From positions 62,001 through 126,000 of the forward strand of contig NZ_JACHLC010000003.1 of assembly GCF_014207845.1 (NCBI RefSeq): a stretch of DNA of 64,000 nucleotides. The letters run 5' to 3'. Under the pieces are notes generated by a model. The model saw only the letters and a list, made by a program, of their open reading frames with translations, made no database searches and had not been told where the DNA came from. This DNA is from Chryseobacterium shigense (GTDB lineage: Bacteria; Bacteroidota; Bacteroidia; Flavobacteriales; Weeksellaceae). Positions within the stretch are counted from its first letter, which is position 1; every line of letters begins with the position of its first letter. A program made the translations under genes and the position numbers. Positions 1,591 to 11,006 of this stretch are shown one piece after another.

Positions 1591-3609
1591 ATGAACAATA
1601 AAGGATTCAACTGGTTTTTTCCAATTGCAATCGTGGCTCTTTTGTTATTTTTCGGCTCCAATTTTTTAGGGGGCGACAGTGCAAAATCTATTGATGAGGA
1701 TGCTTTCTTTAGGGAAATGCAGGCAGGAAAGGTCCAAAACGTTATCATATACAAAGACACAGAGAAAGCAGATGTTTTCCTGACAAAAGCAGCAAAGACG
1801 GCAATGGTCAGCAAATCGGCCAACCAGAATAATCCCCTTTCTGCATTCGATATGGCTCCAAAAGCAGATTTTTCTGTAAAATATGGAGATCTTCAGCTTT
1901 TCCTTCAGAAATTTGATCAGATAAAAGCGACAAACGCAGCAATTAAAACAACAAAAGATTACGGAGCAGGTAAAAACCCGTTCATGGATATCCTGGTTTC
2001 AGCGCTGATATGGATTGCGATCCTGGGACTTTTCTACTTCCTTCTTTTCAGAAAGATGGGCGGAGGCGGAGGCCCTGGCGGACAGATCTTCTCAATCGGA
2101 AAGTCCAAAGCAAAACTATTTGACGAAAAAGAAAGAATCCAGGTAACATTTAAAGATGTTGCAGGTCTTGAAGGTGCTAAAGAAGAAGTACAGGAAGTAG
2201 TAGATTTCCTTAAAAATTCTGAAAAATATACCAAACTGGGAGGTAAAATTCCTAAAGGAGTACTCTTGGTAGGCCCTCCGGGAACCGGTAAAACATTATT
2301 GGCAAAAGCCGTTGCAGGTGAAGCTAAAGTGCCGTTCTTCTCCCTTTCAGGTTCAGATTTTGTTGAAATGTTTGTTGGAGTAGGAGCTTCAAGAGTAAGA
2401 GACCTTTTTGCTCAGGCGAAAGCTAAATCTCCTGCCATTATCTTTATTGATGAGATTGATGCCATCGGACGTGCAAGAGGAAAAAATAATTTCTCAGGCG
2501 GAAACGATGAGAGAGAAAATACACTCAACCAGCTTCTTACAGAAATGGACGGTTTCGGAACAGATGTTAACGTAATTGTGATGGCTGCCACCAACAGAGC
2601 TGATATTCTTGATAAAGCCCTGATGAGAGCCGGACGTTTTGACCGTTCGATCTACGTAGACCTTCCAGAGCTGCATGAAAGAAAAGAAATATTTGATGTT
2701 CACCTTAAGAAAATCAAACTGGATGAAAATGTAGACAGGGATTTCCTTGCCAAGCAGACTCCGGGATTCAGTGGTGCAGATATTGCCAATGTATGTAACG
2801 AAGCCGCGCTTATTGCCGCAAGAAACAGTCATACCTCTGTTACAAAACAGGATTTCCTTGATGCTGTAGACAGAATTATCGGAGGTCTTGAAAAGAAAAA
2901 TATGGCCATCAAACCTTCTGAAAAAAGAAGAGTAGCTTATCATGAAGCAGGACACGCAACAATTTCATGGTTGGTAGAACACGCATCTCCGCTTTTAAAA
3001 GTAACGATTGTTCCGAGAGGACGTTCATTAGGAGCAGCATGGTATCTTCCGGAAGAAAGACAGCTTACCACTACAGAACAGATGCTTGACGAAATGTGCG
3101 CTACTTTAGGAGGAAGAGCTGCAGAGCAGGTTATTTTTAACAATATTTCCACAGGTGCGCTTTCCGATCTTGAAACAGTAACGAAAAGAGCCCAGGCAAT
3201 GGTTACGATCTACGGTTTAAGTCCTAACATCGGAAACATTTCTTACTATGACAGCTCAGGCCAGTCTGAATATTCTTTCGGGAAACCTTATTCTGAAGAA
3301 ACAGCTACAAAAATTGATGCCGAGATTAAATCAATCATCGAAAATCAATATGACAGAGCCGTAAAAATTCTGGAAGAAAACAAAGATAAACTTGATGCTC
3401 TTGCCAACAAGCTTCTGGAAAAAGAAGTAATCTTCCGTGAAGATCTTGAAGACATTTTCGGAAAAAGAGCTTGGGATCCTGAACTTACAGAAAAACCTGT
3501 TACAAATACCATCCCGCAAAAGGATATTGAAACACCGGAAGTACCGGAAATTAAAGAGAAAGAACAAGGAAGTGAAATTCAGGCTCCAGAGAGTCCTTCA
3601 CAGCTTTAA
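1591..3609 (+). CDS. ftsH: ATP-dependent zinc metalloprotease FtsH
   Basis: Membrane-anchored AAA+ protease that degrades misfolded membrane proteins and regulatory substrates, facing the cytoplasm. Order of parts: TM1 (about 8-25), periplasmic domain (26-130), TM2 (about 133-153), a glycine-rich linker, and the AAA module with Walker A GPPGTGKT (228-235), Walker B IIFIDE (283-288) and an [18 protein letters not shown] second-region-of-homology stretch. The M41 peptidase follows, with HEAGH (451-455) supplying two zinc histidines and Asp526 in LSDLE the likely third ligand. The C-terminal tail after about residue 635 is Pro/Glu-rich and poorly conserved. A strong hairpin terminator follows. 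Length (672) is normal. Confidence 0.98.
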
Positions 3610-3631
3610 AGCTCCTTAAAACAGAATATAT

Positions 3632-3665
3632 AAAACCTGGCAGTCTTAGAATTGTCAGGTTTTTT
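3632..3665 (+). terminator. rho-independent terminator after ftsH
   Basis: An 11-bp stem (3632-3642 with 3653-3663, one G-T pair) with a 10-nt loop runs into a T run. It separates rsfS-ftsH from the LUD-cdsA-psd unit. Confidence 0.85.
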
Positions 3666-3708
3666 CATATTTAAGGACTATTTTTGGAATCTATTGTAAT
3701 TTATTTTC

Positions 3709-5226: not shown

Positions 5227-5880
5227 ATGAAATTACATAAGGAGTCAAAAGGAACGATTGCCGTAGCAACAATACTGTTTATTATCATAAGCGTGCTGGC
5301 TATCTATTTTCTTAAAATGTGGTCGTTACTAATTATTATGCCGTTATTAGTGGTTTACAGCCTGGTATTTTGGTTTTTCAGGGTTCCGGCCCGTGATATA
5401 CTTGAGCACAGAGAAAATGTAATTGCTCCTGTAGACGGAAAGGTAGTAATGATTAAAGAAGTGGAAGAGACCGAGTTTGTTAAAGGTAAAGCTATCCAGG
5501 TTTCTATCTTTATGTCACCGCTTAATGTTCATATCTGCAGATATCCGGTTTCCGGAAAAGTAATCTATAAAAAATATCATCCCGGGAAATATCTTGTGGC
5601 ATGGCATGAAAAGTCATCTACGGAGAACGAAAGAACTACGGTAGCTGTGGAAACAGCAACAAATCATCAGGTAGTATTCAGGCAGATTGCGGGATATGTG
5701 GCCAGAAGAATTGTTTTCTACTGCAATGAGGGAGATCAGGCAAAAGCCGGGCATGAGTTCGGGTTCATTAAATTCGGGTCGAGAATGGATGTGTTTCTGC
5801 CCCTGGATACAGAAATTATCTGTAAGATCGGAGATATTACAAAAGGAGGTCTGGATGTAATTGCCAGAATGAAAGATTAA
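5227..5880 (+). CDS. psd: phosphatidylserine decarboxylase proenzyme
   Basis: Converts phosphatidylserine to phosphatidylethanolamine at the membrane. The short form (217 residues, PSD-A type) has two N-terminal hydrophobic stretches (about 10-50) and a catalytic domain with FMSPLNVHICRYPVSG. Self-cleavage should occur in KFGSRMDVFLP between Gly184 and Ser185, the Ser becoming the pyruvoyl group. It directly follows cdsA, so CDP-diacylglycerol synthesis and phosphatidylethanolamine formation are encoded together. The phosphatidylserine synthase that links them is not in this window. A near-perfect hairpin terminator follows. Confidence 0.96.
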   Translation: MKLHKESKGTIAVATILFIIISVLAIYFLKMWSLLIIMPLLVVYSLVFWFFRVPARDILEHRENVIAPVDGKVVMIKEVEETEFVKGKAIQVSIFMSPLNVHICRYPVSGKVIYKKYHPGKYLVAWHEKSSTENERTTVAVETATNHQVVFRQIAGYVARRIVFYCNEGDQAKAGHEFGFIKFGSRMDVFLPLDTEIICKIGDITKGGLDVIARMKD

Positions 5881-5900
5881 TCACGATAAAATTGATATAA

Positions 5901-5931
5901 AAAGGAGAAAATTTAATTTTCTCCTTTTTTT
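5901..5931 (+). terminator. rho-independent terminator after psd
   Basis: A 12-bp perfect stem (5901-5912 with 5916-5927) with a 3-nt loop and a T tract ends the LUD-cdsA-psd unit. Confidence 0.9.
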
Positions 5932-5991
5932 GTTTATTAAATATAAAGCTGATGGTTTAGAGCTATTCTGATTCATTGAAGCCCTTCAGAT

Positions 5992-6024
5992 ATGAGTTTT
6001 ACTACTCGTGCGTAATATTGAGTA
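5992..6024 (+). promoter_or_regulatory. 33-bp promoter element, copy 1 (paired with 8161-8193)
   Basis: Matches 8161-8193 at 27 of 33 positions without gaps. Its core TACTCGTGCGTA is a near-palindrome and it continues into GTAATATTGAGTA. It lies 33 bp upstream of the -7 box at 6058, where an activator would bind. No -33 TTTG is visible at this promoter. Confidence 0.6.
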
Positions 6025-6057
6025 TGTTTATTATAAGGGGAATATATGGGTTGTTGA

Positions 6058-6065
6058 TAATTTTG
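6058..6065 (+). promoter_or_regulatory. -7 promoter element of the HTH gene pair
   Basis: TAATTTTG matches TAnnTTTG and lies 52 nt before the ATG at 6118. The -33 position has no TTTG, which suggests that the promoter depends on an activator bound at the upstream element. Confidence 0.55.
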
Positions 6066-6117
6066 CATACGAAATATAATAGTTTATTTTTCAAACAAAG
6101 TAAAAACTAAATGAAGG

Positions 6118-6531
6118 ATGAATTTAAAAGATATACACATAGGCAAACTTATACATGAAAGGGTTAATGAGCTCCAGATGCCTGTTGCCCGGATCGAAAA
6201 ATTTATGAAGTGTAGTGAGGAAGAAATTGAGGGTATGTATGAGCAAATCAGTATTGATACCTTTTATTTATTGAGATGGAGCAAATTGCTGGAGTATAAT
6301 TTCTTCAGGGTATACAGTGCGCATTTGATTCTTTATGCTCCGCCGGCTAATCCTCCAAAAAAAACTGATCAAAAAGAAAACCTGCCTGTTTTCAGAAAAA
6401 ATATATATACCGAAGAAGTGAAAAGCTTTATACTGGAAAAAATTGCCAGTAAAGAAATGACAGTTAACGAAGTTATTCTGAAATACAGAATACCCAAAAC
6501 CACTCTTCACACATGGATTAAAAAAGCATAA
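6118..6531 (+). CDS. small helix-turn-helix protein (transposase-OrfA-like HTH)
   Basis: 137 residues, cytoplasmic. The N-terminal half (to about 85) is helical and unrecognised. The C-terminal 25 residues read as a Tn3/IS3 OrfA-type helix-turn-helix, with EVILKYRIPKTTLHTWIKK showing the V-x-x-x-Y-x-I-x-x-x-T-L-x-x-W pattern. There is no catalytic DDE domain here or next door and no flanking terminal repeats, so this is not a working insertion sequence. A DNA-binding regulator is more likely. The next gene, 4 nt away, has the same kind of C-terminus, so the two probably work or evolved together. ATG at 6118 follows an AAGGATG-like stretch. Exact function unknown. Confidence 0.6.
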   Translation: MNLKDIHIGKLIHERVNELQMPVARIEKFMKCSEEEIEGMYEQISIDTFYLLRWSKLLEYNFFRVYSAHLILYAPPANPPKKTDQKENLPVFRKNIYTEEVKSFILEKIASKEMTVNEVILKYRIPKTTLHTWIKKA

Positions 6532-6535
6532 ATAT

Positions 6536-6856
6536 ATGGGACCGGATTATAAACAAATATATACTGATATTGTAGAGGAAAAATTCCCGGATAAAGCTGA
6601 TGATCTCAAAATTATACGAAAATTAGAGAATATTAACAGCGTAATGGATATAATAACACTGAATAAGCTTATTTTTGGCGAAGCCGGGCTTTTAATACAA
6701 TCCGAAAGCCAAAAGCTTCGTTCCTATGACCGTAAATCTATTTTCAGTATCCTCGAATATCAGAAAAAAAACAGGCTTAATAATACGGAAACGGCCAATC
6801 ATTTCAGGATGAGCCGAAACACCATATCAAAGTGGAAACGTATTTTCAAAGTTTAA
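6536..6856 (+). CDS. small helix-turn-helix protein, second of the pair
   Basis: 106 residues. It begins with a helical region (about 1-70) without a recognised domain and ends in a helix-turn-helix of the same transposase-like kind: residues 79-106, with N-N-T-E-T-A-x-H-F-x-M-S-R-N-T-I-S-K-W-K. It starts 4 nt after the previous gene, which indicates translational coupling. The two share only the position and type of the HTH, so they are distant relatives at most. It may be a DNA-binding regulator of the neighbouring surface-protein gene. No nuclease or integrase residues are present. Function unknown. Confidence 0.6.
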   Translation: MGPDYKQIYTDIVEEKFPDKADDLKIIRKLENINSVMDIITLNKLIFGEAGLLIQSESQKLRSYDRKSIFSILEYQKKNRLNNTETANHFRMSRNTISKWKRIFKV

Positions 6857-7162
6857 GCCGTTTTTTCTTAAACATCCAAAGCATTTTATTACCATTATTC
6901 CATTGAGCAGATTTTCTGATGCCTGAAATTTTCATGCCTGAAAACTTTTCTCATCCTTATCGGTGTTTTTTGATTTTATCACATAAGAGTGTTTTGTTTG
7001 CTGTTTTACTTCATGTTTAATGATTATATTTTTAATTGTATGTTAAAAATATCTAATTGTCTAAATATTTTGTAAAATCAAATCTTAATATTTCCTACAT
7101 TTATATATTCAAATAGCTACCTGTGTATTTTAATGTATTCACATTTTAAACGTTATTAGAAT
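6857..7162. other. 306-bp AT-rich intergenic region
   Basis: No gene, RNA or strong hairpin could be recognised. It is very AT-rich, especially 7020-7160, and must hold the end of the HTH pair's transcript and the promoter of the membrane regulator. I found no good TAnnTTTG box there. Confidence 0.5.
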
Positions 7163-8152
7163 ATGATAAACAAAATTTCTAAAATAATCAATGGTGAAAA
7201 TGAAATGGTTGATAATAATTTCGATCATAATTATATAATGCTGATCAACCGCTATCTTATATTTCTCTTTTTACTGTTTTTATTTTACTCCGTATTTATT
7301 GTCCTTTTCTTTGGGGACGCAGTGAGTTCTACATTTCTTATTTTTCTTACTTTTTTCTGGTTTTTTTTGATCTTCCTTAAAGGGAAAATCAGCAGATTCA
7401 AAAAAATTCTAAAAGCAGTCATCATTACGATTTTTATCATCCTTACACTTATAGTCAGCTTTTTCTATATATACACCTCAAGAAGTGGGGGAGTTGAGTA
7501 TTTCTATTTTTCACTTCTGTTTGCATTGCCGTTCTTTTTCAATTACGAAGAAGATTATCATCTGATATTGCTTACCGTAATCATTATTGCATTGAACTTT
7601 ATCGGCTGTTTAGTTCTGGAATTGAATTTTGTGCCAAGAAGCGGCTATATAAAAGAGGCGGATTTTAAAATAATACGTCTCCTGAATATTATTTTTTCCA
7701 TCACTACATTTTTGATAGATGCATTCTTTATTTACCAGAAAGATAAGCTTATCAATGGTTTAATAAGGGAGACGGAAATTAAAGACTCAACGATTGAGGA
7801 TTTGGTGAAAGTAAATAATGAACTGATGAAGCAGCAGATTATCAGCAATAACCTGACAGAAGATAATATTGCCGATATTCTGGAGCTGGCAGATATAGAT
7901 TCACCTCTTTTTCTTGAGAGGTTTCAGATGTATTTTCCGGATTTTATGCCCAGTCTTTTAAAGATCAATTCCGGACTTATCAGTTCCGAAATACATATCT
8001 GCGCATTAATGAGACTTAATTTTGATACTAAAAAAATTGCTTTGTGTACCAATAGCAGCGTGAGAGCTATTGAAAGCAGAAAGTACAGAATAAGAAAGAA
8101 ATTGGATATTCCGTCAGATATTAACATCAATAACTTTATACTCAAGATATAG
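7163..8152 (+). CDS. six-helix membrane protein with C-terminal LuxR-like DNA-binding domain
   Basis: 329 residues. Six hydrophobic helices are visible at about 28-50, 55-73, 80-104, 114-127, 133-155 and 171-192. A charged, probably coiled-coil linker follows (about 195-235), then a C-terminal helix-turn-helix (about 270-329). The last part has the GerE/LuxR-type pattern L-N-x-D-T-K-K-I-A, S-S-V-R-A-I-E-S-R-K-Y-R-I-R-K-K-L. Bacteroidetes often fuse such LuxR-like domains to sensory regions without a receiver domain. I infer a membrane-bound transcription regulator that senses an envelope or small-molecule signal. It lies between the two copies of the shared promoter element and is the best local candidate to bind them, which is not proven. 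Confidence 0.65.
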   Translation: MINKISKIINGENEMVDNNFDHNYIMLINRYLIFLFLLFLFYSVFIVLFFGDAVSSTFLIFLTFFWFFLIFLKGKISRFKKILKAVIITIFIILTLIVSFFYIYTSRSGGVEYFYFSLLFALPFFFNYEEDYHLILLTVIIIALNFIGCLVLELNFVPRSGYIKEADFKIIRLLNIIFSITTFLIDAFFIYQKDKLINGLIRETEIKDSTIEDLVKVNNELMKQQIISNNLTEDNIADILELADIDSPLFLERFQMYFPDFMPSLLKINSGLISSEIHICALMRLNFDTKKIALCTNSSVRAIESRKYRIRKKLDIPSDININNFILKI

Positions 8153-8160
8153 CTGTTGTC

Positions 8161-8193
8161 ATGAGTTTCTCTACGCGTGAGTAGTATTGCGTA
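8161..8193 (+). promoter_or_regulatory. 33-bp promoter element, copy 2
   Basis: Second copy of the element at 5992-6024, with core TACGCGTGAGTA and then GTAGTATTGCGTA. It lies 32 bp before the -7 box at 8226. A further partial repeat GTAGTATTGCTGTA occurs at 8210-8223, closer to the -7 box. Confidence 0.6.
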
Positions 8194-8225
8194 GCCCTAT
8201 TTTAGCGATGTAGTATTGCTGTAAA

Positions 8226-8233
8226 TAACTTTG
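8226..8233 (+). promoter_or_regulatory. -7 promoter element of the secreted repeat protein gene
   Basis: TAACTTTG matches TAnnTTTG. No -33 TTTG is visible, as at the promoter of the HTH pair. The leader to the ATG at 8321 is about 85 nt. Confidence 0.55.
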
Positions 8234-8320: not shown

Positions 8321-10129
8321 ATGCTAAAATTTACAACAATGATGACAAAATCTACAAAAATTCAAATCCGGACAATGCTTCTGGCTTTGCTTCTTGTTTT
8401 TGGAGAGTTTTACTCGCAAAGCAATAATGGTGCAGTAGGGATTAATACTGCTTCTCCCAATGCAAACAGTGTTCTGGATGTGGTTTCCGGAAGTAATAAC
8501 AAGGGTATTCTTATTCCCCGCCTCACGGAAACACAAAGAAATACGATTGTAATAAACCCTGCAAAGGACGACGGACTTACCATTTTCAATACAAGTGAAG
8601 ATTGTTATAATTACTGGAGCCTTGCGGATAATGAATGGAAGAGTGTCTGCGGACAGATAGGAAAGTCTGTTTTTACAGTGGATTGTTCAGGAACCAAAGC
8701 AATGGGGACTTATATCCAGGGTAAAGAGCTTACAGCTTCCAATTATCTTAGTGTTAAGGTAAATGTTACCAAAATCGGAAATTATACCATTACAGGAACA
8801 ACTACGAATGGGTATAATTTTTATGGTACCGGTGTTTTCTTAAACACAGGGGTTCAGACGGTACAGGTTCCTGGTCAGGGAATACCGGGTGCGGTACAGG
8901 CAGATGCAGTACAGCTTTCAGCAAATGGTGTAAGTGCAGGATGTTCGGTTACTGTTAACGTATTGAGTTCAGCCGGGACATATTCTATGTCTTGTGGTAG
9001 TGCTGTCGTTAATGGAGTATATACAAAAGGTACAGCTTTAACAGCTACTAATACCATAACATTGCCGGTGGTTGTAACTTCTCTTGGAAGCTATTCTGTA
9101 ACAACCAACACGGTAGATGGAATTTCTTTTAGCGGATCAGGTACATTTACAGCGACCGGAAATCAGAATATCACATTATCAGGGACAGGTACTCCTACCT
9201 CTACTGCAGATAAAGTGTTAACTATAACATCTAACAGTGCAGATGGTGCTGCTACGTGTAACGTAACTGTAGTAATTACAATTCCTGTAAAGAAAGTTCT
9301 GCATATTGGTGCTGAAACAGCTTACGGATACAGTGCTTTCACAGGGCCATCAAGAAGCCTGATGGATTCTCCTACCAATTTCGGAACTACAGCATCAAGT
9401 ATTGTGAAATCAGGAGGATATACTCATACCTCATTGGGATCCAATCCTTCAAATGCAACATTATTAACAGCATTAAATACCAAGCCGGACATCGTAATTT
9501 TAGGATATCCATATACACCGGATGCAACTGCCGCAGGATATTTAGCAAATTATTTGAACAGTAAAGGAGTAGTAATTGCATTTGAAGATGATTCCCCTTC
9601 TTCCCGAAATGTAATGCGTGCAATCTTCTCAGACCCTACAATCTCTGCCAATAATGGAAATGGTGCAGGTTCTGTATATGCCCTTGTAAACACGAACGAT
9701 CCGGTACTAAACGGGCCATTTGGTGATGTAAGAGGGAAAAACTGGGGGGAAGATGCTTCCACAACGATAAATATATCAGGCTTAACAAGTGGTTTTATTC
9801 CATATAGCTATGCTCAGCCTATAAACGATACAACTTCAAGAACCGGAATTTCAGGATTAAGACATGCATCATTGAATTTCATCTGGTTTGGAGATGGTGG
9901 ATTCCTGAGTAATGAAAATGCAAACGGAAATCAATATCCAAGCAATACAATAGAGCCGTTTGTTGCTCCAAGCTCAGGAGGGTATTTCCCGGTACAGAAA
10001 AGCACTTATGGATCTGCCGGTAACGGTTATTCAACAGGAAGTATGCAGGTGCAGAACTCCATACTATTTGCCAATATGCTTGCATGGGCAATTAAACAGG
10101 CGGAAACCAACGGAATAAATACGCAATAA
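8321..10129 (+). CDS. secreted protein with VGINT motif, two Ig-like repeats and a GATase-like C-terminal domain
   Basis: 602 residues. The signal peptide ends near YSQ (about residue 32); starts at M1, M7 or M8 are all possible. A GAVGINTASPNANSVLDV motif follows, typical of flavobacterial surface proteins with tail-fibre-like N-termini. Two repeats of about 103 residues begin near Cys122 and Cys225, each with a G-x-Y-x-x-G-x-x-L-T-A-x-N pattern and a later F-x-G-x-G-x-F stretch. From about 326 the protein changes to an alpha/beta domain: KKVLHIGAE, then KPDIVILGYPY, GVVIAFEDDS, and finally ILFANMLAWAI. This looks like a ThuA/DUF4350-type class I glutamine-amidotransferase-like fold without an obvious catalytic Cys. 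No T9SS C-terminal domain was seen. Role unknown, probably extracellular. Confidence 0.6.
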   Translation: MLKFTTMMTKSTKIQIRTMLLALLLVFGEFYSQSNNGAVGINTASPNANSVLDVVSGSNNKGILIPRLTETQRNTIVINPAKDDGLTIFNTSEDCYNYWSLADNEWKSVCGQIGKSVFTVDCSGTKAMGTYIQGKELTASNYLSVKVNVTKIGNYTITGTTTNGYNFYGTGVFLNTGVQTVQVPGQGIPGAVQADAVQLSANGVSAGCSVTVNVLSSAGTYSMSCGSAVVNGVYTKGTALTATNTITLPVVVTSLGSYSVTTNTVDGISFSGSGTFTATGNQNITLSGTGTPTSTADKVLTITSNSADGAATCNVTVVITIPVKKVLHIGAETAYGYSAFTGPSRSLMDSPTNFGTTASSIVKSGGYTHTSLGSNPSNATLLTALNTKPDIVILGYPYTPDATAAGYLANYLNSKGVVIAFEDDSPSSRNVMRAIFSDPTISANNGNGAGSVYALVNTNDPVLNGPFGDVRGKNWGEDASTTINISGLTSGFIPYSYAQPINDTTSRTGISGLRHASLNFIWFGDGGFLSNENANGNQYPSNTIEPFVAPSSGGYFPVQKSTYGSAGNGYSTGSMQVQNSILFANMLAWAIKQAETNGINTQ

Positions 10130-10182: not shown

Positions 10183-10215
10183 AAAACACCGATGTCAAAA
10201 TAACATTGGTGTTTT
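10183..10215 (+). terminator. rho-independent terminator after the secreted repeat protein
   Basis: A 13-bp stem (10183-10195 with 10203-10215, one G-T pair) and a 7-nt loop precede a T-rich stretch. It covers a TTG at 10206 and so helps reject that as a start of the next gene. Confidence 0.85.
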
Positions 10216-10235
10216 ATATTTTTAATAAAGAATTT

Positions 10236-11006
10236 ATGAAACATCTGAAAGATTTTTTTGATTTAGGCTCCACAAACCTTCTGTATTATTTTTTCTTTGC
10301 AGGATTATGCTACTGGTTATGCTATATCATGTTTAAAAGAACACTTTACAATGCTAAAATTCAGCAGAAAGAAATTAAAAAGGAAGACGTTATAAGAGAG
10401 ATTTTTCATTCCGTGATTTCAACTTTTGTAATGGCGCTTTTAATTCTGCTGGTAACTCACAGCTTCCTGAACCAGTATACCAAACTCTACAGAGATATTA
10501 ACGACTACTCTTTATACTGGCTGGTGGGAAGTACTTTTGTGGGATTATTCATCCATGATACCTATTTTTACTGGATGCACAGGATCCTGCATCATAAAAA
10601 GATCTTTAAATATGTGCATCTTATCCATCATAAATCTACAAATCCCAGTCCTTTCGCTGCTTATTCATTTCATATGGCAGAAGCTATTGCAGAAGGATTA
10701 ATTGTCCCTATTTTACTCTTTATCATCCCTTTACATTTTATCAGTATTTACATATTTATTGTAAGCTCTCTGATGATTAATATTTATGGACATTTAGGGT
10801 ACGAGATTGCTCCAAAATGGCTGAGGAATTCATTTCTCTTTACAATATTCAATACCTCCGTTTACCATAATTTACATCATAATAAATTTAAAGGAAATTA
10901 CGGGCTGTATTTTAGATTCTGGGATAAGATCATGAAAACTGAAAACCCGGATTATGTAAAAACATATGACCGTATTCAGGAAAAGCGCTTCGGAAAACAG
11001 GGTTAA
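10236..11006 (+). CDS. fatty acid hydroxylase / sterol desaturase family protein
   Basis: A di-iron membrane oxygenase of the FA_hydroxylase superfamily. The eight-histidine signature is visible: HDTYFYWMHRILHH, then HLIHH, and H-N-L-H-H near the C-terminus. Several hydrophobic helices lie between and before the boxes (about residues 15-35, 60-80, 95-112 and 140-185). In Bacteroidetes such enzymes hydroxylate lipid acyl chains or act on carotenoid-like substrates, and the exact substrate cannot be read here. I use ATG at 10236 (256 residues) because the longer in-frame start lies in the preceding terminator. The gene ends 4 nt inside the convergent DUF1801 gene. Confidence 0.85.
   Translation: MKHLKDFFDLGSTNLLYYFFFAGLCYWLCYIMFKRTLYNAKIQQKEIKKEDVIREIFHSVISTFVMALLILLVTHSFLNQYTKLYRDINDYSLYWLVGSTFVGLFIHDTYFYWMHRILHHKKIFKYVHLIHHKSTNPSPFAAYSFHMAEAIAEGLIVPILLFIIPLHFISIYIFIVSSLMINIYGHLGYEIAPKWLRNSFLFTIFNTSVYHNLHHNKFKGNYGLYFRFWDKIMKTENPDYVKTYDRIQEKRFGKQG

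Follow-up and report, generated by a model that had tools for sequence, protein, structure and literature searches.

Membrane-spanning regulators with a LuxR-type DNA-binding domain have been described in Eggerthella lenta, where DadR, HcdR and CadR possess 10-12 transmembrane (TM) helices and are concerned with catechol metabolism, and activation by such regulators was demonstrated by knockout (PMC9734109). The protein considered here is encoded at positions 7163..8152 (+ strand) of a 64,000-nucleotide stretch of Chryseobacterium shigense DNA, the whole of which is referred to as the window. As in the E. lenta regulators, N-terminal membrane helices are combined with a C-terminal LuxR-type helix-turn-helix (HTH), and the gene lies beside its targets, which in our case are proposed ones. 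The two differ in that the Chryseobacterium protein has six predicted TM helices and belongs to another phylum, and in that its proposed targets are a secreted protein and HTH genes, whereas those of the E. lenta regulators relate to catechol metabolism (PMC9734109).

In an AlphaFold2 model, six membrane-length helices are followed by an HTH carried on a long helix, and the fold of this HTH resembles the DNA-binding domains of LuxR and NarL. In contrast to proteins with LuxR/NarL/FixJ-type domains such as VpsT, LiaR, VraR, DosR and NarL, however, no receiver or ligand domain was recognized. The six-TM domain resembles that of the membrane adenylyl cyclases Rv1625c and human AC9 at a level that helical bundles can attain without kinship, in a model of middling quality, and unlike those enzymes the Chryseobacterium protein has no cyclase. 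When 25 members were compared with Pfam, 11 gave weak matches to GerE (best E 0.0032), while a larger number, 22, matched Sigma70_r4_2 (best E 0.0011); the window protein itself matched neither family at E values up to 1. Searches of PDB sequences with the proposed regulator and with the secreted protein returned nothing useful, and a limited search of the open-access full-text literature found no paper on this regulator or on the DNA element described below.

A conserved element at two promoters of the window

The element occurs twice on the forward strand of the window. Copy 1 (31 bp, 5994..6024) lies ahead of a gene pair for two small HTH proteins, HTH1 (137 aa, 6118..6531, + strand), whose transposase-like HTH scored below threshold, and HTH2 (106 aa, 6536..6856, + strand). 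Copy 2 (31 bp, 8163..8193) lies ahead of the gene for a secreted protein (8321..10129, + strand, with the start at 8321 or 8339), which comprises an N-terminal helix, two Ig-like domains and a ThuA/GATase-like C-terminal domain. Each copy contains a self-complementary core (6003-6014 and 8172-8183, respectively) and a downstream half-site (6020-6024 and 8189-8193), and each is followed on the same strand by a -7 box: TAATTTTG at 6058..6065 in the promoter of the HTH pair, with transcription predicted to start at ~6070, and TAACTTTG at 8226..8233 in that of the secreted protein, with a predicted start at ~8238.

An earlier note on this DNA had reported 27 identical positions out of 33 between 5992-6024 and 8161-8193, and our recount agrees. 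The boxes TAATTTTG (6058) and TAACTTTG (8226) are where it had placed them, 64 and 63 nt after the start of the common GAGTTT; the core that it called near-palindromic proves, as the 12-bp consensus TACKCRYGMGTA, to be its own reverse complement; and inspection by eye likewise found the -33 TTTG missing from both window promoters. The note had also described an added partial repeat, GTAGTATTGC, at the second promoter. This repeat is present at 8210-8219, but it has no counterpart (≤1 mismatch) in the spacers of the other 81 sites that we examined and hence stands outside the conserved design.

At ≤3 mismatches, the window contains two matches only, both of them the known sites from which the pattern was drawn, and 100 shuffles of the window gave 0 matches. 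The entire genome (4.15 Mb) yields three at the same threshold, these two and one with 2 mismatches; the latter is antisense within a coding frame, which from its translation we take to be rtcB, and was set aside as it has the same coding context in the loci of relatives. A reading of the region as an RNA was also rejected: all Rfam matches were below gathering scores and all fell in 5859-5986, upstream of the element, with none at the element itself.

Symmetry, conservation and spacing of the element

We compared 83 sites from 41 loci, one of them in the window and the rest from 40 of the 68 further genomes matching the long pattern introduced below, and position counts gave the consensus GAGTTTTACTACKCRYGMGTARTATTGMGTA. 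The half-site GMGTA recurs 10 bp downstream of the core, i.e. after one helical turn. Letters 13 and 18 are combined as GA at 30 sites, TC at 29, TA at 15 and GC at 9 (counts that ignore kinship); since unsymmetric combinations are favored, sites tend to join one GCGTA half with one GAGTA half. In three genomes (G080, G081 and G163) the symmetry extends further through an outer TACGC at its left end, and matches there overlap between the two strands. Conservation averages 1.5-1.6 bits per base within the element, as against 0.46-0.51 for the spacer and 0.37-0.51 for the DNA upstream, and copies within one locus are on average 78% identical in the element and 30-32% identical in the flanks (52 pairs, 30 loci). 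The element is thus preserved while the surrounding DNA drifts. A stray site with 3 mismatches in locus L077 was kept in the 83-site box counts and left out of the comparisons of copy identity and spacer repeats.

An exact TAnnTTTG lies 63-65 nt from the element start at 70 of the 83 sites in the 41 sampled loci, whereas 571 other positions between -290 and +289 hold 22 such boxes altogether; the formal P value for this spacing is ~1e-185 when kinship is ignored. Broken down by downstream gene, the exact box is found at 34 of 35 sites before the secreted protein, at 20 of 20 before the membrane LuxR gene, at 12 of 23 before the HTH pair and at 4 of 5 with no island gene behind them. Eight of the 13 misses have TATTTTTA before HTH1.

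The sigma-A promoter of Bacteroidota has a TTTG box at -33. The promoters studied here differ from it in that an element is centered near -61 and TTTG at -33 is mostly missing: a TTTG 17-21 nt upstream of the -7 box is present at 17 of the 70 sites and missing from 53, which fits a need for an activator. Class I activators act from about -61.5. The feature shared with the sigma-A promoter is the TAnnTTTG box, which is numbered -12 to -5 (PMC9723704) and is found at both window promoters and at the same 70 of 83 sites; by this numbering the core is centered at -61.5 for the HTH pair and at -60.5 for the secreted protein, both relative to predicted starts.

Distribution in the genus and layout of the island

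The long pattern GAGTTTNNNTACNCNYGNGTARTATTGNGTA was run at ≤3 mismatches against 173 genomes of the genus with the reversed pattern as a control; 69 of these Chryseobacterium genomes matched, and the control gave 0. Every matching genome has 1-3 matches, within about 2.6 kb. The earlier note had named random occurrence without a fixed distance to the -7 box as the outcome that would speak against it; the copies lie instead on one stretch of this size per genome and at one spacing. One of the 69 genomes (G043, 3 mismatches) was taken as a chance match, and its locus contains no island gene. When a collection covering 84,980 species, which may omit records close to that of the window, was scanned for exact matches, 34 stretches were obtained, each carrying the label Chryseobacterium. 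A 22-base pattern with 2 mismatches allowed was run against 147 genomes from the family's other genera; it hit one of them (G245), compared with 6 that had control matches, and we regard this match, too, as chance. With an 18-base pattern at 1 mismatch, genomes of other families (G025, G029 and G034) were matched, and controls matched as well. In G034 three identical 18-base matches, TAGTCTTGAGTAGTATTG, are found at C1 134320, 140635 and 944210, and this triplet could be a repeat of that genome's own.

The element and its associated genes form an island between psd (40 of 41 loci) and a convergent ABC transporter gene (40 of 41). It is built from three units, the element with HTH1 and HTH2, the LuxR gene with or without an element, and the element with the secreted-protein gene. 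A simple frame picker distinguished 12 arrangement strings among the 41 loci, the commonest of which (11 loci) was element-LuxR-element-HTH1-HTH2-element-secreted; the order seen in the window, with a hydroxylase gene behind it, was assigned to 5 loci including the window. The LuxR gene is present at 40 of the 41 loci, the secreted protein at 34 and HTH1 sequence at 32 (two partial), the last being a tblastn count where the simple frame picker gave 29. At two loci that lack the secreted protein (L084 and L088), the element is followed by another gene of secreted type. In many relatives the gene of the proposed regulator is itself preceded by an element. We also checked 20 of the 103 genomes that have no LuxR gene: the ABC gene follows psd at 435-1134 bp in 14 of them and lies beyond the 1.5 kb read in 6, and no element was found after psd (≤5 mismatches within this 1.5 kb).

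A paralogous regulator and variant elements

In the C. shigense genome the LuxR profile detects two six-TM LuxR genes and 12 further matches that are confined to the HTH end. The second six-TM gene, G000:C1:96911 (L148 6340-7347), comes with a separate variant of the element, present at three promoters. Related elements, e.g. CACTCGTGAGTATTGATGAGTG, precede this gene and the next one, and the same holds for its relatives in G053 and G121. At the promoters of the paralogous LuxR genes, the distance from the core start to TAnnTTTG is 54-55, identical to the value for the first family; ahead of the following gene there are near-boxes only. We searched the genus with the variant at 0-1 mismatch, because at 2 mismatches the pattern was no commoner than its control (6 versus 16 genomes), and obtained 7 sites in exactly the three paralog genomes, 4 of them with an exact box at 54-55. 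A new site at C1:104215 (L208) has its box at the predicted 55 and precedes a gene whose VGINT-type secreted product is at least 462 residues long. In the three 13.5-kb stretches around the paralog in C. shigense, G053 and G121, no match to HTH1 or HTH2 was obtained. Since the paralog possesses its own version of the element, a regulator and its operator seem to be duplicated as a pair and to diverge jointly.

A repeat search revealed a third variant, in three copies (G175, L153 4663, 11326 and 13029), at a locus where a distant six-TM LuxR gene is followed by another frame similar to it. Secreted proteins of the VGVNT/VCINT type lie behind two of the copies and an unknown gene behind the remaining one, and none of the three is followed by an exact box. 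At six distant loci, among them that of G175, a strict de novo scan had detected no element, and a generic pattern detected none at five other distant six-TM LuxR loci or at the 12 loci of C. shigense that match at the HTH end only.

The probable reader of the element

Our preferred explanation, to which we assign a probability of 0.78, is that the six-TM LuxR/NarL-type protein (7163-8152) is a local activator and that the element serves as its operator. Orthologs of its gene were identified by profile (E ≤3.4e-120) in 70 of the 173 genomes, the next matches being paralogs that scored no better than 2.3e-93; two of the 70 orthologs are incomplete, that of G141 containing internal stops and that of G147 being partial. 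The element is present in some form in all 70 genomes with the gene, as against one real site in the 103 without it, in a count that ignores kinship. The long pattern covers 67 of the 70, G080 and G081 match a shorter pattern, and G042 has a version with a 1-bp insertion before the secreted-protein gene, with its box at 65. The single site without the gene (G084) is a remnant: it lies by itself downstream of psd, its -7 box has decayed, and there are no island genes. The earlier note had suggested that both window promoters answer to one activator and that the membrane LuxR-like protein is the obvious candidate, and both the co-occurrence and the paralog's own variant element lend support to this proposal. 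It should be borne in mind that gene and element, as parts of the same island, are jointly gained and lost, so that their co-occurrence represents an association and not independent evidence. Weighing on the other side are the exact box at no more than 12 of the 23 sites before HTH1 and at 4 of the 7 variant sites, its absence from the three copies in G175, the distant six-TM loci and HTH-end loci at which the generic pattern detected no element, and the weak GerE scores beside the more frequent Sigma70_r4_2 matches.

An association at a single locus cannot separate a reader from a target, and the LuxR gene might accordingly be merely one target of a regulator encoded elsewhere; it does carry the element in many relatives, as a target would. 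We consider this unlikely, because the element accompanies the LuxR gene in 70 of 70 genomes and is otherwise found once in 103, as a remnant, and because the other six-TM LuxR gene comes with a variant of the element for itself. The HTH pair could also be envisaged as the reader, with the element serving as the operator through which HTH1/HTH2 control two promoters, their own and the secreted protein's: the element precedes the pair in the window and in many relatives, and both proteins have HTH domains, although these scored below threshold. However, HTH1 and HTH2 sequence is missing from 9 of the 41 element loci and partial in two more, so the pair is not an obligatory reader, and elements at the paralog loci have no HTH1/HTH2 match nearby. 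Moreover, genes like HTH1 are more widespread (165 of 173 genomes) than the element (69). Judged by score and place, the locus yields no match to an HTH1 ortholog in 14 of the 70 LuxR genomes (two matches elsewhere were set aside). A paralog of the pair elsewhere in the genome could still act, and in sum we hold control by HTH1/HTH2 to be very improbable. We attach next to no weight to the idea that the copies arose by recent duplication or as mobile DNA and have no regulatory meaning. The variable gene order of the island, with the frame picker's 12 strings in 41 loci, and the weak resemblance of the HTH proteins to transposase HTHs would agree with it, but what is kept is the element and the -7 box alone, between flanks of 30-32% identity, and the copies remain at the island with one spacing.

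If the six-TM LuxR-like protein is indeed the activator, it would probably dimerize through its long helix and bind the core while embedded in the membrane, with the six-TM domain presumably sensing a signal of some kind. From a class I position, with the near-palindrome centered near -61, it would recruit RNA polymerase to promoters that mostly have no -33 box. Its targets would then be its own island, that is, the HTH pair, the secreted Ig/ThuA-like protein and the regulator itself. Self-regulation would be direct in many relatives and in the window might proceed by read-through from the HTH promoter, and the island would thereby contain a feedback.

More tentatively, and with the odds in our view against it, there may be a Chryseobacterium family of one-component switches in which an adenylyl-cyclase-type six-TM receptor is wired to a LuxR domain. 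On a common scaffold, the half-sites GMGTA, GAGTG and perhaps GAGGG would give each switch its own operator dialect, and each would be paired with its own polymorphic secreted protein of the VGINT type, which the switch might both express and sense.

To our knowledge, few activator-dependent promoters have been mapped in Bacteroidota, and the preferred reading, if true, would define the operator of a membrane-bound LuxR-type regulator in this phylum. It would also offer natural regulator/operator pairs in which to study how specificity diverges after duplication, as well as a handle on the timing of a highly variable secreted protein.

Variation among the island genes

The secreted protein (window 8339-10129 and relatives) has a conserved N-terminal half and a C-terminal half that exists in several strongly different versions; it is a mosaic, diversified protein. 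Behind its gene, a fatty acid hydroxylase gene (window 10206-11006) is found in some relatives only (L089, L102-L104 and L110).

The HTH pair has been lost in L077 and L078, and the two elements of L077 are now 59 bp apart. Locus L114 has a single element left and no island genes. Genes resembling HTH1 (window 6118-6856) give up to 20 matches per genome and encode small transposase-like HTH proteins. In L086 (G012), a frame at 3272-3706 lies between HTH2 and the element and, from its translation, presumably resembles an IS200-type transposase.
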